DNA of 64,000 nt. Origin: Ctena decussata. Lineage: Eukaryota; Mollusca; Bivalvia; Lucinida; Lucinidae. The notes beneath the pieces were generated by a model, which saw nothing but the letters and a program-made list of their open reading frames with translations, made no database searches and was not told where the DNA came from. Positions 2,873 to 64,000 of the stretch are shown in pieces (positions within the stretch are counted from its first letter, which is position 1; each line of letters opens with the position of its first letter). The stretch spans positions 51,391,454 through 51,455,453 of the forward strand of contig OZ022502.1 in the NCBI GenBank assembly GCA_963989385.1, read 5' to 3'. A program made the position numbers and the translations under genes.

Positions 2873-3968
2873 TGCGGGAGGGGGCAAGGGAATGTGGAGG
2901 GGTCAGAGAGAGTTAGGAACACTGATAAGATATCACAGCATGATCATCATTATTCTAAAAGGTACACGGTTATTCAAATTCTGGAGCTGCCAGGGTTATA
3001 CAGTTATGGAGCAGAGACTCAAACAGCAGCTCAAACTACCAAAGGGAAATAACTCACAAAGTATAAAAGCAAGAGTTATCATTCATGTATGAGACAAATT
3101 GTCATGACCCGTTCTGCATATCTGTGAAGTATCATGAAAATATTTCAAAAGGTATTCAAGCTATGGAGCAGAAACCTTAAATCATCAAAGGGAAATAACA
3201 CCAAAAGTAAACAAGCAAGAGTTGTCATTCTTGTTTGCGACACATCATCATGAACTGTTCTACATATCTGTGAAGTATCATGAAAATATTTCAAAAGGTA
3301 TTCAAGTTATAGAGCGTACACGAAATCACACCTAAAACCATCAAGGGGAAATAACTCATAAAGTAAGAAAGCAAGAGTTGTCATTCTTGTTCGCGACACA
3401 TCGTCATGACTTGTTCTGCATTTCTGTGAAGTATCATGAAAATATTCCAAAAGGTATTCAAGTTATAGAGCGGACACGAAATCATACCTAAAGTGATCAA
3501 GGGGAAATAACTCAAAAAGTATGAAAGCAAGAGTTGTCATTCTTGTTCGCGACACACCGTCATGACCTGTTCTACATATCTGTGAAGTATCATGAGAATA
3601 TTCCAAAGGGTATTCAAGTTATAGAGCGGACACGAATCTGCCAAAAAAATCACACCTAAAACTATCAAGGGGAAATAACTCCAAAAGTAAGAGAGCAAGA
3701 GTTGTCATTCTTGTTCGCGACACATCGTCGTGACCTGTTCTACATTTCTGTGAAGTATCATGAAAATATTCCAAATGGTATTCAAGTTACAGAGCGGACA
3801 CGAATCTGCCAAAAAAATCACCAAAGGGGAGATAATTCAAAAAGTACAATTGCAAGAGTTACCATTCTTGTACGCGACACATCGTCATGACATGTTCTAC
3901 ATAACTGTGAAGTATCATGAAAATATTCCAAAGGGTATTCAAGATATAGAGCGGACAAGAAAATGTTT

Positions 3969-4018
3969 ACGGACGGACGGACGGACGGACGGACAGACGG
4001 ACGGACGGACGGACAGAC
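3969..4018 (+). repeat. (ACGG)n tetranucleotide run
   Basis: About twelve ACGG/GGAC units interrupted by two ACAG variants, ending the tandem-repeat body of the element just before its terminal hairpin. The second copy has a shorter version at 21660-21703. Confidence 0.9.
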
Positions 4019-4089
4019 GCCAGGCTCATCGCTATATCCCCCGAACCTTTCGGTCGGGGGATAAAAAGGACACAAAAAAATGTCTGTAA

Positions 4090-20286: not shown

Positions 20287-21755
20287 CAAAAATAGCCATC
20301 AGAGGAGATGACAAATCCCCCGACCGAAGACCCCCATGGGCCTTGGTAAAAAGGGTGCACTTCAAAAGACATATAAGTAATATATTGTCTTTCTTTTATG
20401 CTTCTGATTGACATTATCTGTTTAACGGATGCATGATTATCTAACACTCAGACTAAAATAGTATGCTTGACTGTTAAAAAGAAGTAATATCTCATATACA
20501 TAAATATATAGGATATGATACATTAAACTTTCAAAATGTGTGAATAACTTCTAAACTACAAGCCCTACAAACTTAATTTTGAACTCTCTAGTAATAAGTG
20601 AATTTGGACAAAGAATCCAAATCTGGAGAAAAAAAATTGGTGGGGTGGGGTAGGGAGGGGGGGGGGTGGGGGAGATGTGGAGGGGTCAGAGAGAGTTAGG
20701 AACACTGATAAGATATCACAGCATGTTCATCAATATTCTAAAAGGTATAAAGTTATTAAAATTGTGGAGCAGGCCAGGGTTATACAGATATGGAGCAGAA
20801 ACTCAAACAGCAGCTCAAAATACCAAAGGGAAATGACTCACAAAGTATGGATGCAAGAGTTGTCATTCATGTATGAGACAAATAGTCATGACCTGTTCTT
20901 CATATCTGTGAAGTATCATGAAAATATTTCAAAAGGTATTCAAGCTATGGAGCGGACACCTAAAATCATCAAAGGGAAATAATTCAAAAAGTAAGAAAGC
21001 AAGATTTGTCATTCTTGTTCGCGACACATCGTCATGACCTGTTCTACATATCTGTGAAGTATCATGAAAAATTTTCAAAAGGTATTCAAGTTATAGAGCG
21101 AACACGAAATCACACCTTAACCCATCAAGGGGAAATAACTCAAAAAGTAAGAAAGCAAGAGTTGTCATTCTTGTTCGCGACACATCATCATGACCTGTTC
21201 TACATATCTGTGAAGTATCATGAAAATGTTCTAAAAGGTATTCCAGTTATAAAGCGGACTCGAAATCACACCTAAAATGATCAAGGGAAAATAACTCAAA
21301 AAGTAAGAAAGCAAGAGTTGTCATTCTTGTTTGCGACACATCGTCATGGCCTATTCTACATATCTGTGAAGTATCATGAAAACATTCTAAAAGGTATTCA
21401 AGTTATAGAGCGGACACAAATCTGACAAAAAATCACACCTAAAACCATCAAGGGGAAATAACTCAAAAAGTAATTCAAGTTACAGAGCAGACACGAATCT
21501 GCCAAAAAACTCACCAAAGGGGAAATAACTCAAAAGTACAATAGCAAGAGTTACCATTCTTGTTCGCGACACATTGTCATGACTTGTTCTACATAACTGT
21601 GAAGTATCATGAAAATATTTCAAAGGGTATTCAAGATATAGAGCGGACAAGAAAATGTTTACGGACGAACGGACGGACGGACGGACAGATGGACGGACGG
21701 ACGCCAGGTTCATCGCTATATCCCCCGAACCTTTCGGTCGGAGATAAAAAGGACA
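20287..21755 (+). mobile_element. Composite non-autonomous repeat element, copy 2
   Basis: Same order as the copy at 2482-4072: AATAGCCATCAGAGGAGATG, ATCCCCCGACCGAAGACCCC, a G-rich stretch (20640-20675), five to six ~115-bp units, an ACGG run, and the terminal CCCCCGAACCTTTCGGTCGG hairpin. It is shorter by about one tandem unit. The left flanking sequence (CGCCGCTTTCAAAACC) differs from that of copy 1, which fixes the left boundary near AAAAATAGCC. The right boundary lies after GATAAAAAGGACA. Confidence 0.75.
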
Positions 21756-36837: not shown

Positions 36838-36847
36838 TGACTGAAGC
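36838..36847 (+). repeat. Left target-site duplication of the foldback element
   Basis: TGACTGAAGC, repeated exactly at 50297-50306 on the other side of the 13.4-kb element. The next base differs (G here, T there), so the duplication is 10 bp, or 11 with one mismatch. Confidence 0.8.
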
Positions 36848-37035
36848 GGCTCGGTAAAATTAGCAGAACGAAAATTCTGCAGAAAATTCTGCAGAAGATT
36901 CTGCAGAATTTTCTGCAGAATTTTCTGCAGAAAAAGTGGTAAAGTTAGCGAAATAAATATTCTGCAGAATTTTCTGCAGAATTTTCTGCAGAAAAAGTGG
37001 TAAGGATAGCGAATTGAAAATTCTGCAAAATTTAG
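36848..37035 (+). repeat. Left terminal block: TIR plus eight TTCTGCAGAA palindromes
   Basis: Five palindromes at 12-bp spacing, the spacer AAAGTGGTAAAGTTAGCGAA, then three more, and AAAGTGGTAAGGATAGCGAA. The order and spacers are repeated inverted at 50110-50296. The short-period repeats lie outside the long-period ones. Confidence 0.92.
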
Positions 37036-40000
37036 CAGTTTTTATTTCTTTGTTCTGTCATCTATAGGCCACAAAATGTGAGTGCGAACCGTTTACCGCA
37101 CTACTCTATCTCATATGTGGACCGAGATATTCACAAAAATCGCATATTTTCTTCTGCTGGAAAGTAGCAGAACGACATTTCAGAAACCCTTTATTTGAAA
37201 AGTTTAATTTCTATGTTCTGTCATCTGGATGCCACAAAATGTGAGTGAGCGCCGCTTACCGCACTACTCTATCACATAAGTGGACCGAGATATTCACAAA
37301 AATCGCATATTTTCTTCTGCTAGAGAGTAGCAGAACGAAATTTCAGAAACCCTTTGTTAGCAAAGTTTGATTTCTATGTTCTGTCATGTAGAGGCCATAA
37401 AATGTGAGTGAGCGCCGTTTACCGCACCTCTCTATCTCATAAGTGGACCGAGATATTTACAAAATTCGCATATTTTCTTCTGCTGGAAAGTAGCAGAACG
37501 AAATTTCAGAAACCCTTTGTTTGCAAAGTTTGATTTCTATATTCTGTCATCTGGAGGCCACAAAATGTGAGTGAGCGCCGTTTACCGCACTACTCTATCT
37601 CATAAGTGGATCGAGATATTCACAAAAATCGCATATTTTCTTCTGCTAGAGAGTAGCAGAACGAAATTTCAGAAACCCTTTGTAAGCAAAGTTTGGTCTC
37701 TATGTTCTGTCATCTGGAGGCCACAAAAAGTGAGTGAGCGCCGTTTACCGCACTACTCTATCTCATAAGTGGACCGAGATATTCACAAAAATCGCATATT
37801 TTCTTCTGCTAGAGAGTAGCAGAACGAAATTTCAGAAACCCTTTGTTAGCAAAGTTTGATTTCTATGTTCTGTCGTGTAGAGGCCATAAAATGTGAGTGA
37901 GCGCCGTTTACCGCACCTCTATATCTCATAAGTGGACCGATATATTCACAAAAATCGCATATTTTCTTCTGCTGGAAAGTAGCAGAACGAAATTTCAGAA
38001 ACCCTTTGTTTGCAAAGTTTGATTTCTATGTTCTGTCATCTTGAGGCCACAAAATTTGAGTGAGCGCCGTTTACTGCACTACTCTATCTCATAAGTGGAC
38101 CGAGATATTCACAAAAATCGCATATTTTCTTCTGCTAGAGAGTAGCAGAACGAAATATCAGAAACCCTTTGTAGGCAACGTTTGATTTCTATGTTCTGTC
38201 ATCTGGAGGCCACAAAAAGTGAGTGAGCGCCATTTACCGCACTACTCTATCTCATAAATGGACCGAGATATTCACAAAAATCGCATATTTTCTTCTGCTG
38301 GAAAGTAGCAGAACGAAATTTCAGAAACCCTTTGTTAGCAAAGTTTGATTTCTATGTTCTGTCATCTGGAGGCCACAAAAAGTGAGTGAGCGCCGTTTAC
38401 CGCACTACTCTATGTCATAAGAGAACCGAGATATTCACAAAAATCGCATATTTTCTTCTGCTGGAAAGTAGCAGAACGAAATTTCAAACACCCTTTGTTA
38501 GCAAAGTTTGAGTTCTATGTTCTGTCATCTGGAGGCCACAAAAAGTGAGTGAGCGCCGTTTACCGCACTACTCTATCTCATAAGTGGACCGAGATATTCA
38601 CAAAAATCGCATAATTTCTTCTGCTAGAGAGTAGCAGAACGAAATTTCAGAAACCCTTTGTAGGCAAAGTTTGATTTCTATGTTCTGTCATCTGGAGGCC
38701 ACAAAATGTGAGTGAGCGCCGTTTACCGCACTACTCTATCTCATAAGTGGACCGAGATATTCACAAAAATCGCATATTTTCTTCTGCTGGAAAGTAGCAG
38801 AACGAAATTTCAGAAACCCGTTGTTTGCAAAGTCTGATTTCTATGTTCTGTCATCTGAAGGCCACAAAATGTGAGTGAGCGCCGTTTACCGCACTACTCT
38901 ATCTCATGATTGGACCGAGATATTCACAAAAATCGCATATTTTCTTCTGCTGGAAAGTAGCAGATCGAAATTTCGGAAACCCTTTGTAGGCAAAGTTTGA
39001 TTTCTATGTTCTGTCATCTGGAGGCCACAAAAAGTGAGTGAGCGCCGTTTACCGCACTACTCTATCTCATAAGTGGACCGAGATATTCACAAAATCGCAT
39101 ATTTTCTTCTGCTGGAAAGTAGCAGAACGAAATTTCAGAAACCCTTTATTTGAAAAGTTTAATTTCTATGTTCTGTCATCTGGATGCCACAAAATGTGAG
39201 TGAGCGCCGTTTACCGCACTACTCTATCTCATAAGTGGACCGAGATATTCACAAAAATTGCATATTTTCTTCTGCTGGAAAGTAGCAGAACGAAATTTCA
39301 GAAACCCTTTGTTAGCAAAGTTTATTTCTATGTTCTGTCATCTGGAGGCCACAAAATTTGAGTGAGCGCCGTTTACCGCACTACTCTATCTCATAAGAGG
39401 ACCGAGATATTCACAAAAATCGCATATTTTCTTCTGCTGGAAAGTAGCAGAACGAAATTTCAAAAACCCTTTGTTAGCAAAGTTTGAGTTCTATGTTCTG
39501 TCATCTGGAGGCCACAAAAAGTGAGTGAGCGCCGTTTACCGCACTACTCTATCTCATAGGTGGACCGAGATATTCACAAAAATCGCATATTTTCTTCTGC
39601 TAGAGAGTAGCAGAACGAAATTTCAGAAACCCTTTGTTTGCAAAGTTTGATTTCTATGTTCTGTTATGAAGAGGCCACAAAATGTGAGTGAGCGCCATTT
39701 ACCGCACTACTCTATCTCATAAATGGACCGAGATATTCACAAAAATCGCATATTTTCTTCTGCTGGAAAGTAGCAGAACGAAATTTCAGAAACCCTTTGT
39801 TAGCAAAGTTTGATTTCTATGTTCTGTCATCTGGAGGCCACAAAAAGTGAGTGAGCGCCGTTTACCGCACTACTCTATCTCATAAGTGGACCGAGATATT
39901 CACAAAATCGCATATTTTCTTCTGCTGGAAAGTAGCAGAACGAAATTTCAGAAACCCTTTATTTGAAAAGTTTAATTTCTATTTTCTGTCATCTGGATGC

Positions 40001-41620
40001 CACAAAATGTGAGTGAGCGCCGTTTACCGCACTACTCTATCTCATAAGTGGACCGAGATATTCACAAAAATCGCATATTTTCTTCTGCTAGAGAGTAGCA
40101 GAACGAAATTTCAGAAACCCTTTGTTAGCAAAGTTTGATTTCTATGTTCTGTCATCTGGAGGCCACAAAATGTGAGTGAGCGCCGTTTACCGAACTACTC
40201 TATCTCATAAGTGGACCGATATATTCACAAAAATCGCATATTTTCTTCTGCTAGAGAGTAGCAGAACGAAATATCAGAAACCCTTTGTAGGCAACGTTTG
40301 ATTTCTATGTTCTGTCATCTGGAGGCCACAAAAAGTGAGTGAGCGCCGTTTTCCGCACTACTCTATCTCATAAGTGGACCGAGATATTCACAAAAATCGC
40401 ATATTTTCTTCTGCTGGAAAGTAGCAGAACGAAATTTCAGAAACTGTTTATTTGAAAAGTTTAATTTCTATGTTCTGTCATCTGGATGCCACAAAATGTG
40501 AGTGAGCACCGTTTACCGCACTACTCTGTCTCATAAGTGGACCGAGATATTCACAAAAATCGCATATTTTCTTCTGCTGGAAAGTAGCAGAACGAAATTT
40601 CAGAAACCCTTTGTTAGCAAAGTTTGATTTCTATGTTCTGTCATCTGGAGGCCACAAAATGTGAGTGAGTGCCGTTTACCGCACTACTCTATCTCATAAG
40701 TGGACCGAGATATTCACAAAAATCGCATATTTTCTTCTGCTGGAAAGTAGCAGAACGAAATTTCAGAAACCCTTTGTTAGCAATGTTTGATTTCTATGTT
40801 CTGTCATCTGGAGGCCACAAAAAGTGAGTGAGCGCCGTTTACCGCACTACTCTATCTCATAAGAGGACCGAGATATTCACAAAAATCGCATATTTTCTTC
40901 TGCTGGAAAGTAGCAGAACGAAATTTCAGAAACCCTTTGTTAGCAAAGTTTGAGTTCTATGTTCTGTCATCTGGAGGCCACAAAAAGTGACTGAGCGCCG
41001 TTTTCCGCACTACTCTATCTCATAAGTGGACCGAGATATTCACAAAAATCGCATATTTTCTTCTGCTGGAAAGTAGCAGAACGAAATTTCAGAAACTCTT
41101 TATTTGAAAAGTTTAATTTCTATGTTCTGTCATCTGGATGCCACAAAATGTGAGTGAGCACCGTTTACCGCACTACTCTGTCTCATAAGTGGACCGAGAT
41201 ATTCACAAAAATCGCATATTTTCCTCTGCTGGAAAGTAGCAGAACGAATTTTCAGAAACCCTTTGTTTGCAAAGTTTGATTTCTGTGTTCTGTTATCTGG
41301 AGGCCACAAAAAGTGTGTGTGCGCCGTTTACCGCACTACTCTATCTCATAAGTGGACCGAGATATTCACAAAAATCGCATATTTTCTTCTGCTGGAAAGT
41401 AGCAAAACGAAATTTCAGAAACCCTTTGTTAGCAGAGTTTGATTTCTATACGCTGTCATCTGGAGGCCACAAAATGTGAGTGAGCACCGTTTACCACACT
41501 ACTCTATCTCATAAGTGGACCGAGATATTCTCAAAAATCGCATAAATTCTTCTGCTGGAAAGTAGCAGAACGAAATTAAAGAAACCCTTTGTTAGCAAAG
41601 ATTGATTTCTATGTTCTGTC
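37036..41620 (+). repeat. 163-bp satellite array, left arm (~28 units)
   Basis: The unit contains TTCTATGTTCTGTCATCTGG, AGGCCACAAAATGTGAGTGA, GCGCCGTTTACCGCACTACT, CATAAGTGGACCGAGATATT, ATCGCATATTTTCTTCTGCT and AGCAGAACGAAATTTCAGAA. The 163-bp period was checked at 37211, 37374 and 37537. Two main variants alternate irregularly (GGAAAG or AGAGAG inside TTCTGCT..AGCAGAA, which is itself a small hairpin). Short frames in it are repeat translations. It ends at TTCTGTCA before unique sequence. Confidence 0.95.
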
Positions 41621-42264
41621 ACATGTAGATTTGTGATGGTCACTGAAAATAAAGAAAATACACAAAAAGCGGCCATAGCGGACCGCCATTCCCGCCAAAA
41701 ATGAAGACTGGATACGCCCAGCAATCATAATTAATCAGGATAAAGTTATACCATGAATAATTTTAAGCCCTTCCTTTAATCGACTTCTGACAGTTAATTG
41801 GCTGAAAAAAACTCGCGTGCACAGATTAGAGGTTAATGCTTTTGTAAAATTATTTACCCCACCAATCATAAAATTCAAAACATGCTTGCAGAAACGCGTG
41901 TGGAAGTCAGTCAATTTATGACTACAAAATATTCGTGGATATTCAAGAAGGGTACGCATTGATATATCGTCTCTGCCTCCGTAACAAAGATGTTTTCGTT
42001 GAAGATTTTTTGAACAAATCTTAATTATGTTGCATACAACTAACCAGAATCATAATTTTGTAATTATTTTGTAAAGAAATACGAGGGAGTATACCTTTAA
42101 ATAAACATATTTTAGTCGTGCACAAACAACACAAAACATTACCAATCCAACACCTACTGCAAGCAGAGGCAGGCCCTTGCCCTCCATCAGGATGACGTGG
42201 TTCTACGACCTTGTCAACAGAAGGTAAGTTGTATCGAGTTATGGAAGGCTGATAATGAAAGATA
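41621..42264. other. Middle of the foldback element, left part, no gene
   Basis: Non-repetitive, no convincing frame. At 42150-42175, CACCTACTGCAAGCAGAGGC resembles words in the element at 51068-51314. Confidence 0.5.
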
Positions 42265-42946
42265 TACTGTTCACAAAAAGTAGGGGATATTAAGTCATTA
42301 AAAATTGTATAAATTCATCTGAAACGGCAAGTATCCATCAGACAAATATTCGATAAGACATTTTGCATTACAATTTAGATGGTGTATCCTGTCACGTGAC
42401 CTGCGTGTCATTCGTTTTAGACAGGGGGTCAACACCCGAATTTCACACGAATCTGGTATCGAAACAGATTGTTTTTAGATTACAAAATTTACAGAGAAAC
42501 ACTTGTCATGCTTCATTTAACAAACTAAAAATTGGGTTTACACACTCTTTCATCAAAATAATGAGTGCAAGCCATAAACGTCTAAATATTTCGGTAACTC
42601 GATGCACCTGTACGAATTTTGTTTTCTGGTTTTCTTCCCAACATAACAGTTTTGAAGAAGAAGAAAAATCTTTTAGCATACAAAACTTAAAAGTGCATAA
42701 AACGGTTAGCTTAGTTGAAGAATTTGAATAAATTTTTGTTCGAATTTACCACATTTTAGTCCTGACCCCCTGTATGAAACAAATTGTATGCAGATCACGT
42801 GACAGGATATATTGTCTAAACCTTCATGAAAAGTGTCTTAACAGATAGTTATCTCATCAATATTTAGCGTTTCATATGAATATCACATTTGTTGTAGATG
42901 CTACAATTTTTCATACCTGAAAATCCCCTACTTTTTGTGAACAGTA
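42265..42946. mobile_element. 682-bp element with long inverted ends, mariner-type
   Basis: The ends are TACTGTTCACAAAAAGTAGG then GGAT at both sides, inverted, with TA flanks (42263-42264 and 42947-42948). A second inverted block inside (TCCTGTCACGTGAC at 42387 and GTCACGTGACAGGATAT at 42797, GACAGGGGGTCA and TGACCCCCTGT) extends the inverted arms to about 170 bp. The 122-codon frame at 42363-42731 has no transposase motif and is probably non-coding filler. It lies nested in the middle of the foldback element. Confidence 0.75.
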
Positions 42947-43068
42947 TATGATTGAAATACTGGTTTAACCGCATGCCAACTTAAATATTTCTTCAGATTC
43001 CAAAAGGCTATCTCTATACAAAATGCTTAAGTCAGATGTTTTTCACGTCGTTTCTTCTCAGTGACAAG

Positions 43069-43289
43069 GGGCCGTATTCATAAAGCCACTTAAGTCGTTG
43101 CTATGCGGTTGCTAAGGCTAAATATCTATAAAGGAGGTTCCCTACATCTATGAAATTTGCTCTGGAGGAACAGTCTTTGTAAGACTGTTCCTCCAGAGCA
43201 AATTTCATAGTTGTAGGGAATCTCCTTCAAAGAAATTTAGCCTTAGCAACAGCATAGCAACCACTTAAGTCGTTTTATGAATACGGCCC
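43069..43289. mobile_element. 221-bp palindromic MITE family Q, copy 1
   Basis: Ends GGGCCGTATTCATAAA inverted at the two sides. The arms run through CACTTAAGTCGTTGCTATGC, GTTGCTAAGGC and AAATTTGCTCTGGAGGAACA to a tiny loop, almost a perfect hairpin. It is flanked by AAG on both sides (43066-43068, 43290-43292). The second copy at 56464-56683 is flanked by CTG twice. A 3-bp duplication with GG(G)C ends fits PIF/Harbinger-type elements, by inference. Confidence 0.85.
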
Positions 43290-43292
43290 AAG

Positions 43293-44687
43293 GCCCCTTG
43301 AGAAGACGAATACGGGACTGCAAATTCATGCCATATATAAGAATTTCAATATCTTCGTATCAGCCGTTTTTGAGATTCGCAGCTACCAGAGCATGTTACG
43401 GACGGACAGACTAGAGACAGGCGAACAGACCAGCAAACCAAAATGCTCTTTAACCAAACCAGTTTGCCCATTAACGGTTGGGCAGCTGGGGACATAATAA
43501 ATGAGTCAGTAAAAACGAGTGAGGCTCGAGGGAGGTGTACACTTCACTCGACCATCACTCAATTCTCAACACGCCAGACTGAGTGAGATTTTAATGAGTG
43601 AATTCAGGGATTACATCAGGAGTGTGAGTAACGTTCTAGAATACAGGCGTTAAAATTGTAATGTGTTGTGGTCACACTGACAAACATCATTAATGCCTTA
43701 CTGACATTGGATTTCAAACTCGTCCGAGATTTTATAGCTATCTTTTCCATCTTGGGTATCCATATATAAGCGCATGTTTCCCATAGATCCTCTTAAAGAA
43801 AAAAAGACAAAACAAAACAAAAACAAAACCGAAGATGTATGTGCTACATGTATCTTGTTTGCACGAGCAAATAGGGTGTCTTTTCCATAGATATTGATTA
43901 AACTTGGCCATATTGTGGTCGACGGATGGACAACCGTTGTTCTAACTTTCATTATGAAGCCAAATGCGTTCCGTCATCAACACCAATGCTTAGCTTTGTA
44001 AAACATCAAATTTAAATTAATTTGAGTAAGCAATACACAGAGCGAGCAGAGAAATCAATGCCCCAAATATTCACATTTTCGAGAGAAAATAATGCTTCTT
44101 TTAATGATTATAAAAGCAGTAGCTTCGTATTCGCCAAAACATTAAACTTAAATTGGTGAACATGAAATTGGTGTAACAGAAATACTGACAGCAGATCATA
44201 ACGGTTTTTTTTCTTCCCAAAATGTGTTTTTCACACACATGCACGTTTGTGCTGGCTTTGTGCAGTTGTTACTCAAATTTAAATTAAACTGGTAAATTTC
44301 ATGCTGACCAGTCAGGACAGAATACATTAACTTCCACAAAAAGTTAGAATTCAGTTGTTATTATCTCCAATGATCTTGTTACATTTGCTTTTTCAGCACG
44401 CTTAACCTTTGGCGAGGAACGTATATATAAATGTCAGACGAAACAGTGCACGAAATTGGACTATTTTGCTCAGAGAATATATGCCTTGTTAAAAAATTAA
44501 CCAGTTCTTCCATATTAATATAACAGAATGAAAAGTAATCTCACACATCCTTGCAAGGGTTGTGGGGTGGAGGGGGGCTTTCGAATTTACAAACACTGCT
44601 GGGATCGAACATCAAATGTGGCCACCACTTTAAAAACAGAAAATGAAATCCATAAAGAATCTTTGAAATTGTTATTTGAGCAACATG
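43293..44687. other. Middle of the foldback element, no gene
   Basis: Short frames at 43698-43952 (minus) and 44528-44761 (plus) have no recognisable domain. The second runs into the MITE. TGAGTGA/GAGTGAG words cluster at 43500-43640. Confidence 0.5.
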
Positions 44688-44904
44688 ACAAAACCAACAA
44701 AGTGGCATGTGCGCCCAGCGAAGACTCAGATCAGCCTGGGCATCCGCACAGTCTGATTTGACTCTTCTTTATGTGCTTAAAGGTTAGCAAAGCTTGCTCC
44801 AAGCGCACAGCGAAGACTCTGATCAGACTGGGCGGATGCCCAGGCTGACCTGAGTCTTGGCTGCGCGCACATGCCACTTTGTTGGTTTTGTCGTGTAGCG
44901 GCTC
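44688..44904. mobile_element. Palindromic MITE family P, copy E
   Basis: Starts GAGCAACATGACAAAACCAA and ends inverted GAGCCGCTACACGACAAAAC. Flanked by ATTT on both sides (44684-44687, 44905-44908), an exact 4-bp duplication. 217 bp with a small central deletion. The translated arms give the PSEDSDQPGHP / SQDSGQPGHP strings often seen as false proteins in bivalve annotations. Confidence 0.9.
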
Positions 44905-45149
44905 ATTTGTTTTCATCATGGCAGACCTTTGCACCCTTTTTCCAGTTGCAAGTTTCTGTAAATGTCAAACATTATACTGGAATTATTTGCAGACGCAATG
45001 ATATCTGCATAATAGAATATGAAAACTAGGGCATGCTAACACGTGTGTCTTCACCAATCGTTGAAGCATTTTCATGAAAGTGATTTGTGTGGCGCCACTA
45101 GAAAAGGCCGGCTAGGTGTTTTACCACCTGTGCAGATCAGCCATCAGCT

Positions 45150-45265
45150 CATCCGACTAGCTTTGAGGCCTTACTAACACCTTCGTAGGAGATAATAAGT
45201 CCTACGTAGCACTTACTAACACCTACTTAGGACTTATCTTATTAGTTAACTAGCAAATTCGACGA
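45150..45265. repeat. Short CCTACGTAGG-type repeats, left part
   Basis: TAAGTCCTACGTAGCACTTA and CACCTACTTAGGACTTATCT are the same ~21-bp theme as 45780-45915, which lies beyond the 508-bp element between them. Confidence 0.65.
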
Positions 45266-45270
45266 ATTTA

Positions 45271-45778
45271 TGTCCCCCGCCTTGGAAATTAGGTCTCCAC
45301 CGTATATACACTTAGTGTTTGAGCTGGAAAGGCGGCTAAGTTAAAAATGTGAAAAAAGTAATAAAAAAAAAATAACGTGAGGATTATATCCATACCACAT
45401 GCATATCTTCAGACCATGACCGAAACACCTGTGAAGTTTCAAAGGCATCGGCATAAAACTGTAGAGAAGTTGCGCACACAAGGTACCCACCATCTAGTCA
45501 CTTTGATAGTAAAAACGCCTAAAAAATGACTAAGTTCAACTTGTGGAAAAAGTGACAAAAAATAATCTCAGGATTACATCCAAACCACATGCGTATCTTC
45601 AGACCATGACAAAAACATCTGTAAAGTTTCGAAAGAATCGGCATAAAACTGTAGGAGGAGTTGCGCACACAAGGTACCTACTACTTTAGGGGGACGGAAA
45701 GACGGAAGGACGGATGGACGGAAGGACGGAATGCCGAAAACTATGTCCCTCCGCTTTTCTTCGAAAAGGCGGGGGACA
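45271..45778 (+). mobile_element. 508-bp composite element with TGTCCCCCGCCTT ends
   Basis: TGTCCCCCGCCTT at the left and AAGGCGGGGGACA at the right. The right end again forms its own hairpin (ATGTCCCTCCGCTTTTC/GAAAAGGCGGGGGACAT). Inside are two ~185-bp units (CCACATGC.TATCTTCAGACC, ATCGGCATAAAACTGTAG, GTTGCGCACACAAGGTACC), then a GGAC/GGAAGGAC run. The architecture matches the elements at 2482 and 20287, although the sequences differ. It is inserted within a CCTACGTAGG repeat tract. Confidence 0.75.
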
Positions 45779-45779
45779 A

Positions 45780-45915
45780 TAAGTCCTTCGTAGGAGTTAG
45801 TAAGTCCTATGTAGGAGTTAATAAGTCCTACATAGCAGTTACTAAGTCCTATGTAGAAGCTAGTTAGCCTAGCGTAGGAGTTAGTAAGCCCTTCGTAGGC
45901 ATTAATAAGTCCTAC
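45780..45915 (+). repeat. ~21-bp minisatellite (CCTANGTAGGAGTTANTAAGT)
   Basis: Six to seven units such as TAAGTCCTATGTAGGAGTTA and TAAGTCCTACATAGCAGTTA. A 21-bp period keeps one frame open on the minus strand, giving a false seven-residue protein repeat (SYxGLTN-like). Confidence 0.8.
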
Positions 45916-46123
45916 ACAGGATAACAATATTGAACATATACCAATTTGACATGTGTGATCACCACATCCACTTTAAAGTGCTTATGTCTCAAAAAATAGA
46001 TGCCTCCCCATCAAACGGCATATGCTGTGATAAAGTAGACTCATGATGCCACTTATCAGCAAAAAATAGACACTTTGATAGGGTCAGGAAACATGCTTTA
46101 TTAAGACTCCCCCTTTGGTGGCC
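45916..46123. other. Middle of the foldback element, right edge
   Basis: No feature recognised. The satellite arm starts at AAGGTTTCTGAATTTTC. Confidence 0.5.
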
Positions 46124-49100
46124 AAGGTTTCTGAATTTTCATTCTGCTACTGTTCAGCAGAATATCCGATTTTTCTGAATATCTCGGTCCACTTATGAGA
46201 TAGAGTGGTGCAGTAAACGGTGCTCACTCACATTTTGTGGCCTCCAGATGACAGAACAAAGAAATAAAACTTTGTTAACAAAGGGTTTCTGAAATTTCGT
46301 TCTGCTACTTTCCAGCAGAAGAAAATATGCGATTTTTGTGAATATCTCGGTCCACTTATGAGATAGAGTAGTGCGGTAAACGGCGCTCACTCACTTTTTG
46401 TGGCCTCCAGATGACAGAACATAGAAGTCAAACTTTGCTAACAAAGGGTTTCTGAAATTTCGTTCTGCGCCTTTCCAGCAGAAGAAAATATGCGATTTTT
46501 GTGAATATCTCGGTCCACTTATGAGATAGAGTAGTGCGGTAAACGGCGCTCACTCACTTTTTGTGGCCTCCAGATGACAGAACATAGAAATCAAACTTTC
46601 CAAACAAAGGGTATCTGAAATTTCGTTCTGCTACTTTCCAGCAGAAGAAAATATGCGATTTTTGTGAATATCTCGGGCCCTTTATGAGACAGAGTAGTGC
46701 GGTAAACGGCGCTCACTCACTTTTTGTGGCCTCCAGATGACAGAACATAGAAATTAAACTTTTCAAATAAAGCGTTTCTGAAATTTCGTTCTGCTACTCT
46801 TTAGCAGAAGAAAATATGCGATTTTTGTGAATAACTCGGGCCTCTTATGAGATAGATTAGTGCGGTAAACGGCACTCACTCACATTTTGTGGCCTCCAGA
46901 TGACGAAACATAGAAATCAATCTTTGCTAACAAGGGTTTCTGAAATTTCGTTCTGCTACTTTCTAGCAGAAGAAAATATGCTATTTTGGTGAATATCTCG
47001 GTCCACAAATGAGATAGAGTAGTGCGGTGAACGGAGCTCACTCACATTTTGGGGCCTCCAGATGACAGAACATAGAAATCAAATTTTGCAAACAAAGGGT
47101 TTCTGAAATTTCGTTCTGCTACTTTCCAGCAGAATAAAATATGAGATTTTTGTGAATATTTCGGTCCTCTTCTGAGATAGAGTAGTGCGGTAAACGGTAC
47201 TCACTCACATTTTGTGGCCTCCAGATGTCAGAACATAGAAATCAATCTTTGCTAACAAAGGGTTTCTGAAATTTCGTTCTGCTACTTTCCAGCAGAAGAA
47301 AATATACGATTTTTTGAATATCTCGGTCCACTTATGACATAGAGTAGTGCGGTAAACGGCGCTCACTCACATTTTGTGGCCTCCAGATGACAAAACATAG
47401 AAATCAATCATTGCTTACAAAGGGTTTCTTAAATTTCGTTTTGCTACTTTCCTGCAGAAGAAAATATGCGATTTTTGTGAATATCTCTGTCCACTTATGA
47501 GATAGAGAAGTGCGGTAAACGGTGCTCACTCAAATTTTATGGCCTCTAGATGACAGAACATAGAAATCAAACTTTGCTTACAAAGGTTTCTGAACTTTCG
47601 TTCTGCTACTCTCCAGCATAAATATTATACAATTTTTGTGAATATCTCGGTCCACTTATGAGATAGAGTAGTGCGGTAAACGGTGCTCACTCACATTTTG
47701 TGGCCTCCAGATGACAGAACATAGAACTCAAACATTGCTTACAAAGGGTTTCTTAATTTCGTTCAGCTACTTTCCAGCAGAAGAGAATATGCGATTTTTG
47801 TGAATATCTCGGTCCTTCAATGAGATAGAGTAGTGCGGCAAACGGCGCTCACGTACTGCTACTTTCCAGCAGAAGAAAATATGCGATTTTTGTGAATATC
47901 TCGGTCCTCTTATGAGATAGAGTAGTGCGGTAAACGGCGCTCACTTACTTTTTGTGACATCCAGATGACAGAACATAGAAATCAAACTTTGCTAACAAAG
48001 GGTTTCTGAAATTTCGTTCTGCGCCTTTCCAGCAGAAGAAAATATGCGATTTTTATGAATATCTCGGTCCACTTATGAGATAGAGTAGTGCGGTAAACGG
48101 CGCTCACTCACATTTTGTGGCCTCCAGATGACAAAACATAGAAATCAAACATTGCTAACAAAGGGTTTCTTAAATTTCGTTTTGCTACTTTCATGCAGAA
48201 GAAAATATGCGATTTTTGTGAATATCTCGGTCCACTTATGAGATAAAGAAGTGCGGTAAACGGTGCTCAGTCAAATTTTATGGCCTCTAGATGACAGAAC
48301 ATAGAAATCAAACTTTGCTTACAAAAGGTTTCTGAACTTTCGTTCTGCTACTCTCCAGCATAAGAAAATATGCGATTTTTGTGAATATCTCGGTCCACTT
48401 ATGAGATAGAGTAGTGCGGTAAACGGCGCTCACTCACATTTTATGGCCTCTACACGACAGAACATAGAGATCAAACTTTGCTTATAAAGGGTTTCTGAAA
48501 TTTCGTTCTGCTACTCTCTAGCAGAAGAAAATATGCGATTTTTGTGAATATCTCGGTCCACTTATGAGATAGAGTAGTGCGGTAAACGGCGCTCACTCAC
48601 ATTTTGTGGCATCCAGATGTCAGAACATAGAAATTAAACTTTTCAAATAAACGGTTTCTGAAATTTCGTTCTGCTACTTTCCAGCAGAAGAAAATATGCG
48701 ATTTTTGTGAATATCTCGGTCCACTTATGAGATAGAGAGGTGCGGTAAACGGCGCTCACTCACATATTATGGCCTCTACACGACAGAACATAGAAATCAA
48801 ACTTTGCTAACAAAGGGTTTCTGAAATTTCGTTCTGCTACTCTCTAGCAGAAGAAAATATGCGATTTTTGTGAATATCTCGGTCCACTTATGAGATAGAG
48901 TAGTGCGGTAAACGGCGCTCACTCATTTTTTGTGGCCTCCAGATGACAGAACATAGAGACCAAACTTTGCTTACAAAGGGTTTCTGAAATTTCGTTCTGC
49001 TACTCTCTAGCAGAAGAAAATATGCGATTTTTGTGAATATCTCGGTCCATTTATGAGATAGAGTAGTGCGGTAAACGGCGCTCACTCACATTTTGTGGCC

Positions 49101-50109
49101 TCCAGATGACAGAACATAGAAATCAAACTTTGCAAACAAAGGGTTTCTGAAATGTCGTTCTGCTACTTTCCAGCAGAAGAAAATATGCGATTTTTGTGAA
49201 TATCTCGGTCCACTTATGAGATAGAGAGGTGCGGTATACGGCGCTCACTCACATTTTATGGCCTCTACATGAGAGAACATAGAAATTTACGTTTGCTAAC
49301 AAAGGGTTTCTGAACTTTCGTTCTGCTACCTCCCAGCAGAAGAAAATATGCGATGTTTGTGAATATCTCGGTCCACTTATGAGATAGAGTAGTGCGGTAA
49401 ACGGCACTCCATCACATTTTGTGGCCTCCAGATGACAGAACATAGAAATCAAACTTTGCCAACAAAGGGTCTCTGAAATTTCGTTCTGCTACTTTCCAGC
49501 AGAAGAAATTGTGCGATTTTTGTGAATATCTCGGTCCACTTATGAGATAGAGAGGTGCGGTAAACGGCGCTCACTCACTTTTTGTGGCCTTTACACGACA
49601 GAACATAGAAATCAAACTTTGCTAACAAAGGGTTTCTGAAATTTCGTTCTGCTACTCTCTAGCAGAAGAAAATATGCGATTTTTGTGAATATCTCGGTCC
49701 ACTTATGAGATAGAGTAGTGCGATAATCGGCGCTCACTCACTTTTTGTGGCCTCCAGATGACAGAACATAGAGATCAAACTTTGCTTACAAAGGGTTTCT
49801 GAAATTTCGTTCTGCTACTCTCTAGCAGAAGAAAATATGCGATTTTTGTGAATATCTCGGATCACTTATGAGATAGAGTAGTGCGGTAAACGGCGCTCAC
49901 TCACATTTTGTGGCATCCAGATGACAGAACATAGAAATTAAACTTTTCAAATAAAGGGTTTCTGAAATTTCGTTCTGCTACTTTCCAGCAGAAGAAAATA
50001 TGCGATTTTTGTGAATATCTCGGTCCACATGTGAGATAGAGTAGTGCGGTTAACGGTGCGCACTCACATTTTGTGGTCTATAGATGACAGAACAAAGAAA
50101 TAAAAACTG
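46124..50109 (-). repeat. 163-bp satellite array, right arm (~24 units, inverted)
   Basis: The reverse complement of the left-arm unit, including the same two variants. The innermost units (46124-47880) are more diverged than the outer ones. A partial unit occurs near 47850-47870 (CACGTACTGCTACTTTCC), marking a ~90-bp deletion. Confidence 0.95.
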
Positions 50110-50296
50110 CTAAATTTTGCAGAATTTTCAATTCGCTATCCTTACCACTGTTTCTGCAGAAAATTCTGCAGAAAATTCTGCAGAATATTTATTTCGCTAA
50201 CTTTACTACTTTTTCTGCAGAAAATTCTGCAGAAAATTCTGCAGAATCTTCTGCAGAATTTTCTGCAGAATTTTCGTTCTGCTAACTTGACCGAGC
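50110..50296 (-). repeat. Right terminal block: eight TTCTGCAGAA palindromes plus TIR
   Basis: Mirror image of 36848-37035, in the same order: three palindromes, spacer, five palindromes, then TTTTCGTTCTGCTAA and ACCGAGC at the very end. Confidence 0.92.
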
Positions 50297-50306
50297 TGAC
50301 TGAAGC
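50297..50306 (+). repeat. Right target-site duplication of the foldback element
   Basis: TGACTGAAGC, identical to 36838-36847. Confidence 0.8.
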
Positions 50307-56120: not shown

Positions 56121-56463
56121 AAACTAGGACTGATATGGCATTGCGACATAATTAGCGAAGTTTGGTTTTACTTCTCTTGGATAAGTTAGGCTTGTTATGT
56201 ACAGGTTCTAACAGGGACCTGTCGTCTTAGTTCTTCTGCCTTCGTTCCTCAGTGTCACTTGTTGTATGTCCGCTTGTCTGTGATCTTCTAGCAATACGGT
56301 CACCTGTATAGCTACCCGCTTTGCTTTCTGTCTTGTTTTGTAATCAAAATAGAAAATAGGTAAAATAGAGGCTACCGCTGTTTGTTCTGGTTGTCCATGT
56401 GGTGCTTTCGTTCACATCTTGTGTGAGTGGTAGCTGAATGACCATCTGTCTGGGAAAGAGCTG
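56121..56463. other. No gene seen
   Basis: The word AAAATAGAAAATAGGTAAAA (56345-56366) is shared with 53200-53221. Otherwise nothing is recognised. Confidence 0.45.
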
Positions 56464-56683
56464 GGGTCGTAATAATAAAACCACTTAAGTCGTTGCTATG
56501 CTGTTGCTAAGGCTGAATTTCTATAAGGTGAGTCTCTACAACTATGAAATTTGCTCTCGAGGAACAGTCTTTTTCAGACTGTTCCTCCAGAGCAAATTTC
56601 ATAGTTGTACAGAACCTCCTTCATAGAAATTCTGCCTTAGCAACAGCATAGCAACCACTTCAGTCCTTTTATAAATACGGCCC
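56464..56683. mobile_element. Palindromic MITE family Q, copy 2
   Basis: Worn left end GGGTCGTAATAATAAAACC, intact right end ATAAATACGGCCC, arms as in 43069-43289 around CAGTCTTTTTCAGACTG. Flanked by CTG on both sides (56461-56463, 56684-56686). Confidence 0.85.
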
Positions 56684-60711: not shown

Positions 60712-61014
60712 CTACTTGATTTCTTTCAACAAAATGGCAATAAATGAACAGAGATTCTTTAATTGATTTGTTTGCTTTAGATTCATCAACTCATTATATT
60801 TTAATACAGTTGGGTGCTTATAATAGTATGGTTTAATATATTGTCTCCTGAGATGAAGAAAGTGCTTGCAATTCATTACATAATGGAATTCGTCTCCAAT
60901 ATCTTCGGAGCATAACAAACATTTTCGCTCACTAAGTGGGATACCAAGCCATCTACCTTTTTCTACAGGAAACCTATGATTTCTTGTGCGAAACGCAAGA
61001 AACTGTCTAGACAT
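60712..61014 (-). pseudogene. LINE ORF2 C-terminal zinc-binding (zf-RVT-like) region
   Basis: 100 codons reading FPVEKGRWLGIPLSERKCLL and then CLLCSEDIGDEFHYVMNCKH, the Cys-x2-Cys..His..Cys pattern at the end of many LINE ORF2 proteins. It belongs with the RT frame just upstream, but about 200 residues expected between RT and this region are missing and the frame shifts, so an internal deletion has occurred near 61010-61060. Confidence 0.75.
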
Positions 61015-62593
61015 GTTTTTCGTAAGTATATTGAAATAATCGCTTTTTTGAATTCTGTTTTAAACAAACGATAACAAATGAACCACTTTGAGCTAGATTG
61101 ATACCTAAATATTTATATTCTTTTATTATTTCTATGGTGTCGTTTCCAAAGTAAAACCTACAGGATCGCCGTCTGCCAGTTGAAAATATAACAATCTTTG
61201 TTTTAGATATGTTTACTGTTAGTTTCCATGTTTCACAGTACAGTTTGAAATTATCTAAAGCGCATTGCAAGTCCGACGCTGTACTGCTGAATAAAACTGT
61301 ATCGTCCGCATAGAGAAGCAACAGAATTTTGAGATACATATATATGTCGTCACTTGCTACCTCACAATCTATTCCAGTTACATTATGTGACATAAGGAAA
61401 TGATTTAAATCATTTAGATAGAGAGAGAAAAGAATCGGGGACAAATTTTCCCCCTGTCTGACTCCCGCTACACAGGGGAAAAAGGCTGAAGACTCATTAT
61501 TTGTTGCGACCTTAGATTTTATATTTTCATACATATTTTTTATTAGGTTAAAACTTTTTCCATTTATGTTGTATTCTTTTAATTTGCACCATAGGCCTTG
61601 CCTCCAAACGGTATCAAAGGCCTGTTTGAAATCAATAAAACAACAGAATAGTTTATTTCGACTAGATTTTGCGATATCGATTAAACTTTTTATGATGAAT
61701 AAATTATCTACTGTCGAATGATTCTTCCTAAATCCGGCTTGGTTTTCCTCAATAATGTTATATTTTTCTGTGAAGAGCTTCAATCTGTTATCAATTATAA
61801 GTGTAAATAACTTCCCCAAGCAGCTTAATATAGTAATGGGTCTATAATTTTCTGGCAATTTCGGGTCCCCCTTATTTTTATAAATCGGCTTTATAACACC
61901 CAATGTCCAGCTTTCTGGTATTTTACCGCTATTAAACACTAAGTTAAACAGTTTTGTGTATATAGGCAACATTATGTTAATCGTTGTCTTTATATGTTCA
62001 TTTTTTATATTGTCTATGCCCGGTGCTTTATTGTTATTCAATTGTTTGACAGCTTTAAGTATTTCGCTTTCACTTATTACCTGATTTAGTTCTTCGTTCA
62101 GGTCGGCATTGTTGTTATTATCTATATCTGTTTGTGTTTGACTGTTCTTTTGTGAGTTGACGTCTTTGAAAGAATTAAATAAATCATTTAGAGATGCTTT
62201 TATATCCTTGTTTTCACTTTTAAGGTTCAAAAGTTTCCAGTATTCCTTGCTGTTGGATGACTTAAGTCTTCTAAGCTTTTCAATGCGATTCTGATTGAAA
62301 GTTCTAACGTTTCTTGCAATAGTTTGCTTATATTGTTTACTTATTCTTTTTAGATACATTTTGCTTTCCTGTGACTTATATCTGTTATAAAGTTTTCTAG
62401 CATAATGATATTGGTTTCTTGATTGACGGCATTCAGAATTAAACCATAGTTTCTTCTCGCGTGCCACAGAGTTAAAATCGTGTTTTGGCACTGTAGAACC
62501 AAACGTTTTTAAAGCATTTTTCTCAAAAAGAATGCCTATTTCGGCAACAACACCATCCAATTCGTTCTGCGTTATATCTTTGTATTGCCAGAG
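61007..62593 (-). pseudogene. LINE reverse transcriptase, long open frame
   Basis: 517 codons from 62560, and continuous in frame with the sequence above the TAA at 62596-62594. Numbering from Met 62560: NNKAPGIDNIKNEHI at 176-190, NYRPITILSCLGKLF at 238-252, QAGFRKNHSTVDNL at 274-287. Motif A is FIDFKQAFDTVW at 308-319 (Asp310), motif B GVRQGENLSPILFSLYLNDL at 366-385, and motif C YADD at 417-420. SKTKIVIF at 452-459 and YKYLGINL at 482-489 follow. All three catalytic Asp are present, so this RT core looks recently active. The thumb/connection region is then lost. Confidence 0.88.
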
Positions 62594-63642
62594 TTAATTT
62601 AATTTCGAAAGAATTTCGGTCACAGAACTCAAATCTAGATTTTCTTCAAAGTGACTGCTATTATTATCATTCCATAATCTTGTTTTGCTATTATCAAATT
62701 GATATTCCTGACCAAAGCTGAAATTTGTATCGGTGGACTGTGATCGTATAGATAACGCAACAGGGCAGTGAACATCTGAATACAGGCTGCTAAATTCTAA
62801 AATTTCAAGCTTATTTATTTTGGGAAACAAATTCGAGGTGCTTAAAAAGTAATCTACTGTACTTTTATTTTTACATGTAAATTTTGCGCTATCTATACAA
62901 TCATTTATTCTTCCATTCAATATGAATAGATCAACAGTTTTGCAAAACTCTAGCATCTGATTGCCATAGTGATTAATTTGTTTATCCATATTCGACCTCT
63001 GCAAAGCAATGTTACATTTTGAAAAGTAGTCAAAAACTTCTAAATTCTCGTCCCGTAGGGACTCCAAGCCATGCATTTCGCTAATAAACAAATCAATCTC
63101 TTGGAAGTCATTTTTCTCACCAGTGCGAGAGTTAAAGTCACCAAATAAAATAAATTCAGAATTATTACAATATCTTAGATTTCTCGTTGCAATTCAGCAT
63201 AAGGATCTTCATGGGCATATTTCGAGCCGTACGGAGGTATATATACCACACCACAGTTTATAGGGCTGCCCGTCGGTGAAATGTCTGAAGAAATTGTAAA
63301 CCACTGTACGATTTTGGACTCGTTTTTCGTTTCAGTTTTGATGTACTTTCGAATTTCGCTTTTAATAAGTAACGCGATACCTCCCGATTTGGTTCTTGAT
63401 AACTTTTGTCTGTTATTATATATGATATTATATCCCGAAATGTTAATATCATCACAGTCATCCGTCTTACTTTCTTGTATGCCGATAATATCATAACGAT
63501 TGATCAATTCGGTGAATTCCGGAATTTGTGATTTCGATGCTAAACCACAAACATTCAGTGAAAGTATTTTTAATTCTGGTTTCCCGGCGCAGCTAGAATT
63601 AGAAATGTTTGCACTACTACAATTAAAATCACGTGAATCACT
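62594..63642 (-). pseudogene. LINE AP-type endonuclease, frameshifted
   Basis: From 63642: ELKILSLNVCGLASKSQIPE (Asn of the first EN motif), DIIGIQESKTDD (catalytic Glu), SGGIALLIKSEIRKYI and VVYIPPYGSKY. One base is lost near 63178, and the frame resumes with FILFGDFNSRTGEKND (GDFN motif). It continues through FTCKNKSTVDYFLSTSN to YSDVHCPVALSIRSQ (SD-H catalytic pair). A TAA at 62596-62594 separates it in frame from the RT. The catalytic residues survive, while the frameshift and stop make the copy non-coding as a whole. Confidence 0.85.
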
Positions 63643-64000
63643 GTTTGGTGTATTAACATTATACCTGGCATAGTGGATCAGTCTGATATCGCAAATGACC
63701 TCATATTATTTATAGAATCACAGTTACCTATATTTCATGGTTCAGTGATTTGCCTTGTTTCTCCAAGACTGTTTGATAGATTAACATCATATTTGGCAGT
63801 TCAACACTTTGAATGACCTCATAGAAGACATACTTTCATCATATTTTGAGTTGTATTCAGTATGTATTCATCATATACCTGGGATAATGGCTCAGTCTGA
63901 CACAGCAGATTACTTGATATATTTGTAGGTCTTTGTGACTGTGAGATTCAGGCACCCGTTAGGCGCGCTTTGTTGTCCTCTGACAACTCTTGTTTCAGAC
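63643..64000 (+). repeat. Dispersed repeat, right half, continuing past the LINE
   Basis: Three degenerate units start ATTAACATTATACCTGGCAT, ATTAACATCATATTTGGCAG and TTCATCATATACCTGGGATA, each followed by CAGTCTGA..GA-type words or AATGACCTCAT. It ends GTTAGGCGCGCTTTGTTGTC then CTCTGACAACTC. It is related to 58320-58495. Confidence 0.55.

Follow-up and report, generated by a model that had tools for sequence, protein, structure and literature searches.

Evidence for a multi-copy foldback transposon family with satellite arms in the bivalve Ctena decussata

Two long blocks of tandem satellite repeats lie in opposite orientation within a 64,000-nucleotide stretch of the Ctena decussata genome (the window), which raises the question of whether they are neighbouring arrays or the arms of a single mobile element. 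The first-pass annotation had read the whole block as one inserted foldback transposon, and this is borne out by copies at other loci and by related empty sites. With at least 64 ends in the genome, duplicated target sites at 10 of 14 convergent end pairs and related empty sites for one copy, we conclude with high confidence that the block belongs to a real, multi-copy family of foldback DNA transposons that carry large arms of satellite repeats.

Structure of the window element

The element extends from 36848 to 50297, about 13.4 kb in total, and consists of two inverted arms flanking a 4.5-kb middle, each arm being made up of a terminal block of about 195 bp and an array of 163-bp satellite units (Table 1). 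A direct repeat bounds it on both sides as the first-pass annotation had claimed, but its length is 9 bp rather than 10 bp. The sequence TGACTGAAGC is found exactly twice in the window, at 36838 and 50297; in all 26 distinct fetched ends with the GCTCGGTCAAG signature, however, the preceding base is A, so that the T at 50297 is a base of the element and the duplication is the 9-mer GACTGAAGC. A 10-bp duplication at this copy is thus ruled out, the tenth base being the element's own. In a chance control, pairs of places drawn at random from the window's first 36 kb shared a repeat of at least 9 bp, no more than 2 bp away, in 29 of 200,000 draws.

Table 1. Features of the window element
Feature	Position	Strand	Remarks
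Left target-site duplication GACTGAAGC	36839..36847	.	identical to 50298-50306
Left terminal block, 'G' end GGCTCGGTAAAATTAGCAGAACG...	36848..37040	+	97.9% identical to inverted right block; fold; near-full genome matches elsewhere
Left (G-side) satellite array, 28 units of 163 bp	37041..41621	+	
Middle	41622..46125	+	no Pfam match in six frames
Nested MITE, TA duplication, inverted repeats	42265..42946	.	empty site in sister copy C14_50.82
Nested foldback MITE, CAAGG duplication	43070..43288	.	empty site in three sister copies
Inverted-repeat MITE	44680..44899	.	family has several more window copies
Private insertion, about 530 bp, GTCCCCCGCC/GGCGGGGGAC inverted near ends	45250..45779	.	this copy only
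Right (A-side) satellite array, 24 units of 163 bp	46126..50104	-	
Right terminal block, 'A' end AGCTCGGTCAAGTTAGCAGAACG... read on minus strand	50105..50297	-	
Right target-site duplication GACTGAAGC	50298..50306	.	

The identity between the terminal blocks holds over 192 bp (36849-37040 against inverted 50105-50296). With up to three mismatches allowed, the terminal pattern has three matches in the window against 0.37 expected, and it is perfect at the two termini only. The left block contains 12-bp palindromic repeats centred on CTGCAG and is predicted to form a hairpin with a 26-bp stem; the DNA fold of 36848-36990 has a z of -10.0, none of 200 shuffles being equally good. Exact-pattern scans of viral and of prokaryote contigs gave no lead, nor did an Rfam search. 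The sole likeness on one Rickettsiaceae contig (L001), the single contig from a second prokaryote scan, was a 24-bp stretch matching several spots in the palindromic terminal repeats.

A family across the genome

The count of distinct ends includes the window's two, and the list of 64 is a lower bound. Fourteen convergent end pairs were examined, the window's among them, and ten have a duplication of their own (seven exact 9-mers, two exact 10-mers and one matching at 8 of 9 bases), so that at least nine other copies lie between their own duplicated target sites; in the other four a duplication was looked for and none was found. The test on which the first-pass annotation had staked its reading thus came out in its favour, the terminal block standing beside different direct repeats at other loci. 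The same plan occurs on several chromosomes, and the features of the foldback class, namely long inverted termini of tandem repeats and multiple copies with their own duplications, are present in the window and in other copies.

Related empty sites were established for one copy, C1_35.88, which is inserted in a different tandem repeat. Relatives of that repeat without the insertion can be compared with it, and all four that were fetched continue through the junction with a single copy of the target. The window copy's left flank has a single match in the genome, and hence provides no empty site.

The two ends are polar. A G end is partnered with an A end in all ten duplicated pairs, and the orientation of the middle tracks end type in all eight duplicated copies that hold a middle, while the right end of C9_43.72 combines marks of both types. 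C7_23.07 and C8_4.19 are shrunken copies, the former being a tail-to-tail palindrome of two arrays without a middle.

Satellite arms and middle

In the window, the first unit of the left array begins at 37051 and the right array runs inward from 50094, two of its units being deleted forms; across the family, arms hold 9-64 counted units. The terminal 13-mer TAGCAGAACGAAA recurs along these arms: ten copies with 458 counted full units have 341 occurrences of it in their arrays, or about three quarters. It occurs exactly once per terminal block in 12 of 12 copies, its other occurrences being confined to the arrays (in the window there are none outside terminal blocks and arrays), and in the same 12 copies it lies on the plus strand in the left arm and on the minus strand in the right, always pointing the same way as in the terminal block of that arm. 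The 16-bp stretch containing it ranks 28 of 163 in conservation; the 13-mer is not the best-conserved part of the unit, and conservation therefore does not demonstrate selection for a binding site. A protein search with the satellite reading frame gave no lead.

The nearest relative of a unit lies in the same arm for 185.9 of 458 units, against 29.6 by chance, and in the opposite arm of the same copy for 15.0 against 25.2, below chance. Unit order is hardly common to copies: of 90 same-type arm pairs, two did better than every one of 100 shuffles, which does not point to long arrays jumping at full length rather than growing after landing. Within the window, the four-unit blocks L03-06 and R06-09 resemble each other to a degree equalled in at most 1 of 1000 shuffles. 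The arm-to-arm exchange or conversion that this suggested is not claimed, since the opposite arm is nearest less often than chance, and the run test does not bear it out either, with none of ten same-copy arm pairs beating all shuffles.

Most of the window middle is common to seven other copies, part of it to an eighth and about 0.4 kb to a ninth. The description of the element as complete is accurate for its ends but not for its middle, which has no recognised coding, lacks a block of about 0.67 kb that is present beside the G-side array in several sister copies, and carries the private insertion, missing from all nine sister copies that hold the site. The nested MITEs are filled in some family copies and empty in others; that at 42265..42946 is probably Tc1/mariner-like, judged only by its TA and inverted ends, and the CAAGG foldback MITE has a second window copy at about 56463-56683. 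Among the best 120 of 1529 matches in a reverse-transcriptase search were a Mercenaria clam protein and a pearl-oyster protein, both about 45% identical, along with Thiodiazotropha-bin proteins whose identity reached 60%. This is consistent with a bivalve, the bins possibly representing host contamination.

Transposase and superfamily

Six-frame scans of the window middle and of the inner blocks of five other copies yielded no transposase match above the Pfam cut-off; in another three copies the reading was confined to open frames. The genome does contain MULE-domain genes whose open frames are long, but all 53 MULE-domain matches lie more than 380 kb from every one of the 64 listed ends (at least 64 exist in the genome), and 20 short MULE loci of about 3.3 kb contain no terminal block or 163-bp unit. 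The 9-10-bp duplications of the ten copies are within the 8-11 bp given for MULEs (PMC6446971). The Mutator-like transposition proposed in the first-pass annotation thus fits in duplication length and found no supporting transposase; since none was recognised in the scanned copies and no MULE match lies near the listed ends, Mutator parentage is suggested by duplication length alone.

Alternative explanations

Satellite arrays and assembly palindromes are common, the arms are repetitive and the assembly was judged without reads, all of which would suit two adjacent opposite arrays, or a palindrome created in assembly, that lie between direct repeats by coincidence. We give this next to no credence and reject it: the same ends, arrays and middle occur at many places with different duplications, related empty sites exist, and an artefact is made unlikely by arms that differ in sequence (2% in the terminal block) and unit number and by the recurrence of the plan on several chromosomes. 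A satellite that was resident first, and that a smaller element captured or entered without the arms becoming part of the mobile unit, would agree with the varying array lengths and the hardly shared unit order. Against it, all ten duplicated copies have their arrays inside the terminal blocks and enclosed by the duplications, the first units of 20 arms closely resemble one another (likeness 0.958, compared with 0.901 between first and other units) and the inner junction of the A-side array with the middle recurs in 10 of 12 copies, and we consider it very improbable.

Pearl elements of the Helitron/Helentron type are also mobile elements with tandem repeats of about 160 bp in bivalves, in arrays of up to six, close to the 163 bp found here (PMC7492417). 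They are described, however, with a single central array between two modules and no long inverted arms (PMC7492417), whereas the present family has two inverted arrays, one per arm, long terminal inverted repeats and 9-10-bp duplications. On the duplications and inverted ends the pearl plan is rejected, its likelihood being negligible; as weak evidence, the comparison with the BIV160 satellite covered two published D. trunculus primers, which fit the unit only as well as shuffled ones do. Of greater weight, though still unlikely, is movement of the unit by a non-MULE transposase, P-like as in Galileo or of an undescribed superfamily, with a convergent foldback plan. Different superfamilies are said to have evolved that plan (PMC4079207, PMC3169594), and the absence of MULE-domain matches near any listed end is in keeping with this; the duplications fit MULEs (PMC6446971) but are too long for the 7 bp of Galileo (PMC3573991), and long-frame MULE-domain genes exist in the genome.

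Comparison with known elements

A foldback plan characterizes FB/NOF of D. melanogaster and the TU elements of sea urchin, and the likeness of the present family to these is one of plan, at the level of description only; the first-pass annotation also drew a parallel in repeat periods with Drosophila FB elements, short outside and longer inside. The plan of the element is that of Drosophila Tetris, a direct precedent. As described for Drosophila virilis, Tetris is likewise an apparently non-autonomous foldback element, with an outer flanking domain and tandem repeats of about 220 bp in its TIRs corresponding to the terminal block and array here, a 37-bp stretch common to repeat and outer domain that recalls the terminal 13-mer, a middle of variable content with no apparent coding capacity, and duplications of 8-10 bp (PMC4079207). 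Variation in its array length was ascribed to unequal exchange, as proposed here, and satellite arrays of up to 66 repeats were argued to have grown inside it (PMC4079207). Its TIRs reach 1,735 bp and long arrays were thought disruptive (PMC4079207), whereas here single arrays of 1.7-10.4 kb belong to copies that are duplicated at the target site and have both ends. Compared by description, the family further differs from Tetris in its outer domain of CTGCAG-centred palindromes, a fixed difference between the ends and its host (PMC4079207).

Tm1 of root-knot nematodes differs in its repeat unit of 13-15 bp, one described copy being 1,080 bp long, and one member encodes a Phantom-type MULE transposase (PMC3169594), whereas none has been recognised here. 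Galileo, of the P superfamily in Drosophila, is similar in its long, internally repetitive TIRs and in arms that vary separately in repeat number, and differs in its 7-bp duplications, which the 9-10-bp duplications here do not match, its P-type transposase and TIRs of up to about 1.26 kb (PMC3573991, PMC3688188). Its repeats contain extra transposase-binding sites, as biochemically demonstrated (PMC3573991, PMC3688188). New here are the family itself, the polar end pair and the repetition of the terminal 13-mer in own-end direction.

Proposed mechanism and significance

We propose that the foldback family is moved by a transposase whose gene lies outside the element. This enzyme, which would recognise one G and one A end and insert the unit via a 9-bp staggered cut, most probably belongs to the Mutator (MULE) superfamily or to something closely related, for example Rehavkus. 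By analogy with Galileo, and because TAGCAGAACGAAA recurs in most units in own-end direction, the units of each arm plausibly provide additional transposase-binding sites, which could explain the persistence of such arms. The arms would lengthen and shorten separately, most simply through unequal exchange, the outermost unit staying nearly fixed while inner units turn over, and internal deletions, most of them breaking where the middle borders the G side, would give shrunken forms, down to middle-less tail-to-tail arrays. A tentative and rather doubtful extension is that the family is a mobile satellite carrier in which, with the terminal recognition sequence present in most units, growth of the satellite and transposition reinforce one another, longer arms collecting more transposase and each jump seeding two inverted arrays (up to 64 counted units per arm) at a fresh site, with a palindrome like C7_23.07 as the end product.

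The family adds a well-supported, many-copy foldback family in a non-insect animal genome, and allows direct tests of the link between satellite DNA and transposons, by comparing change in array length with jumps and by assaying binding of the motif by transposase. With its long inverted arms on many chromosomes, the family is a candidate cause of inversions as well, a role reported for Galileo in flies.

Structure and target duplication of the element

The first-pass annotation had proposed a single inserted unit with matching inverted ends and a 10-bp target duplication. The structural part holds. The terminal blocks are 97.9% identical over 192 bp, with the satellite arrays inside them. The proposed duplication has to be shortened by one base. 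TGACTGAAGC occurs in the window only at 36838 and 50297, and the base preceding the GCTCGGTCAAG signature is A in all 26 distinct fetched ends; the T at 50297 is therefore the last base of the element, and the duplication is 9 bp long. Among pairs of random places drawn from the first 36 kb of the window, a repeat of at least 9 bp within 2 bp arose in 29 of 200,000 draws. The terminal block contains 12-bp CTGCAG-centred palindromes and has a single-stranded DNA fold with a z of -10.0, equalled by none of 200 shuffles, while the one satellite unit tested gave a z of -1.3 (22/200 shuffles equal).

Sister copies and empty sites

Two terminal-block searches of the genome (1.658 Gb, 245 contigs), in which 40 of 455 and 40 of 453 candidates were scored, yielded at least 64 distinct ends (41 from one and a further 23 from the other, the total including the window's two). 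A duplication flanks 10 of the 14 convergent pairs examined, window included, and a second extraction of the sequence covered nine of these ten sites. The terminal block thus stands beside different direct repeats elsewhere (sister copies are named by contig and Mb position), and the reading as one inserted foldback unit stands, having survived the refutation test set for it in the first-pass annotation. Each duplicated pair combines one G end (GGCTCGGTAAA) with one A end (AGCTCGGTCAAG), the two types of terminal block. No duplication was found at C14_50.82, whose left end is damaged, at C9_43.72, where the left side has a pair of terminal blocks placed head to head and the right end is of mixed type, at C2_55.93/55.98, with ends 52 kb apart, or at C9_43.575/43.592, where each end is of the A type; C2_55.93/55.98 and C9_43.575/43.592 are probably not genuine pairs. 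The two blocks at the left edge of C9_43.72 (G000:C9:43722900-43723400) are separated by a few bases, and two adjacent elements or a chimeric copy are candidate readings.

The window copy's left flank matched the assembly only at itself, in a search that skips very common words, and gave no empty site. The target of C1_35.88 is a different tandem repeat, with neighbouring matches about 177 bases apart (G000:C1:35877250). With 39 of 840 candidates scored, its joined flanks matched at 317 places spread over many contigs, the listed matches spanning the junction. Four fetched relatives, 89-91% identical, read straight across the junction with a single copy of the target and represent related sites in that tandem repeat, not the other allele.

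Features of the window and target duplications of the copies
Feature	Window position	Detail
Element	36848-50297	duplication GACTGAAGC, exact 9-mer
Terminal block, G end	36849-37040	plus strand
Terminal block, A end	50105-50296	inverted
TA-flanked MITE	42265-42946	missing from C14_50.82
CAAGG-flanked MITE	43070-43288	same place filled in C7_14.93, C10_18.82, C2_67.74, C9_43.72; clean empty site in C5_84.10, C1_35.88, C14_50.82
Insertion, ~530 bp	45250-45779	window copy only, absent from 9/9 copies with the site; contains internal 8-bp GGACGGAA repeat
156-bp tandem repeat, two arrays	3033-3962; 20817-21473	
ACGG microsatellite	3969-4019; 21661-21703	after each 156-bp array
LINE-type endonuclease and reverse-transcriptase frames	60712-63705	several pieces, minus strand
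C5_26.88		duplication TATATATTC, exact 9-mer
C10_18.82		duplication TCTCTAGCG, exact 9-mer
C13_26.23		duplication GGACCACAG, exact 9-mer
C8_4.19		duplication AAATTATCA, exact 9-mer
C2_67.74		duplication TCAAAATCT, exact 9-mer
C1_35.88		duplication CTTAAAAGG, exact 9-mer
C7_23.07		duplication GTTCCTCCAG, exact 10-mer
C5_84.10		duplication CAGAGATACA, exact 10-mer
C7_14.93		duplication GGTCGAAAG/GTTCGAAAG, 8/9 bases

Satellite arms

The window arrays comprise 28 units of 163 bp on the left and 24 on the right, including two deleted forms (TRF and unit cutting). The set used for comparison holds 458 full units from ten copies, with C14_50.82 and C9_43.72 excluded and the window's right arm represented by its 22 full units, the two deleted ones uncounted. 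Arms in these copies range from 9 to 64 units, the longest array measuring 10,430 bp. The likeness among first units is 0.958, and that of first units to the others 0.901. Of the 458 units, 185.9 have their nearest relative within their own arm (chance 29.6), 175.5 in a same-type arm of another copy (204.3), 81.6 in an other-type arm of another copy (198.9) and 15.0 in their own copy's opposite arm (25.2). These counts favour the same arm far beyond chance; the arms thus evolve separately, with G and A arms keeping some identity of their own. Unit order is hardly kept between copies, beating all 100 shuffles in 2/90 same-type, 1/90 other-type and 0/10 same-copy pairs, with a longest common run of five units. 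The A-side array of C2_67.74 is interrupted after its first ~157 bp by ~4.2 kb without satellite matches (G000:C2:67750900-67755250).

The terminal 13-mer TAGCAGAACGAAA has 43 occurrences in the window: 25 in the left arm, all plus-strand, and 18 in the right arm, all minus-strand, with none outside the arms. In all 12 copies it is found once per terminal block and otherwise in arrays only, without exception in the orientation of its own end. The arrays of the ten copies with counted units hold 341 occurrences vs 458 full units, and its conservation among units is moderate and unexceptional (a 16-bp stretch ranks 28 of 163). This sharing between terminal block and units resembles Tetris of Drosophila virilis, whose 220-bp repeat has 37 bp in common with the outer domain according to the available text of PMC4079207.

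History of the middle

Most of the window middle is common to seven other copies, with C13_26.23 holding ~1.8 kb of it and C8_4.19 ~0.4 kb, all at roughly 92-98% identity, and in 8/8 duplicated copies with this middle its orientation tracks end type. The middle of C5_26.88 is different and is shared in part with C2_67.74; C7_23.07 lacks a middle, its arrays joining tail to tail. Array and middle meet at the same A-side junction in 10/12 copies; the G-side junction is distinct in nearly all, C2_67.74 and C5_26.88 having one in common. A ~0.67-kb block at the G-side edge is present in C2_67.74, C9_43.72, C1_35.88, C7_14.93 and partly C13_26.23, and not in the window copy. Nested MITEs served as history markers among copies.

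Transposase and superfamily

Six-frame Pfam scans of the window middle and the inner blocks of C2_67.74, C5_26.88, C9_43.72, C13_26.23 and C1_35.88 recognised no transposase and nothing over cut-off, returning two weak unrelated matches; for C5_84.10, C14_50.82 and C7_14.93 the inner blocks were examined solely for open frames. Twenty window open frames, two of them in the middle, gave a LINE reverse transcriptase above cut-off, several weak sub-threshold matches (e.g., DUF4371) and no MULE-like match. Of the 53 MULE-domain matches in the genome, none lies closer than 383 kb to any of the 64 listed ends, and neither the terminal block nor the 163-bp unit is present in the 20 MULE loci examined. 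Contig C9 carries three open frames with a MULE domain, each 975 aa long and exactly 11,942 bases from the next (16055795, 16067737, 16079679), with tandem triplication or an assembly repeat as candidate readings. The Mutator-like class proposed in the first-pass annotation is matched by duplication length and not by any transposase in the copies scanned; as duplications are 8-11 bp in MULEs and 9 bp in Rehavkus in the available part of PMC6446971, the 9-10-bp duplications point to a putative MULE-type superfamily.

Relation to known elements

Tetris is the nearest system in plan among those described in the source sections available. Its TIRs reach 1,735 bp and its satellite arrays, argued there to have grown inside the element, up to 66 repeats (PMC4079207); large arrays by themselves are therefore no novelty. 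In the parts available, Tm1 of root-knot nematodes likewise makes duplications of 9 bp and has composite TIRs with unlike end motifs (PMC3169594), and in Galileo, a Drosophila element of the P superfamily, the arms also change separately (PMC3573991) and the TIRs carry multiple transposase-binding sites (PMC3688188). No bivalve foldback family was found in the literature searched, mostly outside subscription papers and Repbase. Within the accessible text of bivalve or satellite papers, foldbacks enter via citation of Tetris (PMC11136912, PMC12628747, PMC7492417), the word foldback occurs once (PMC5139131) or it is absent (PMC10294476). Taken together, the window element is well supported as representing a new foldback transposon family, whose satellite arms exceed the TIRs that the available source sections give for complete copies of the compared elements.
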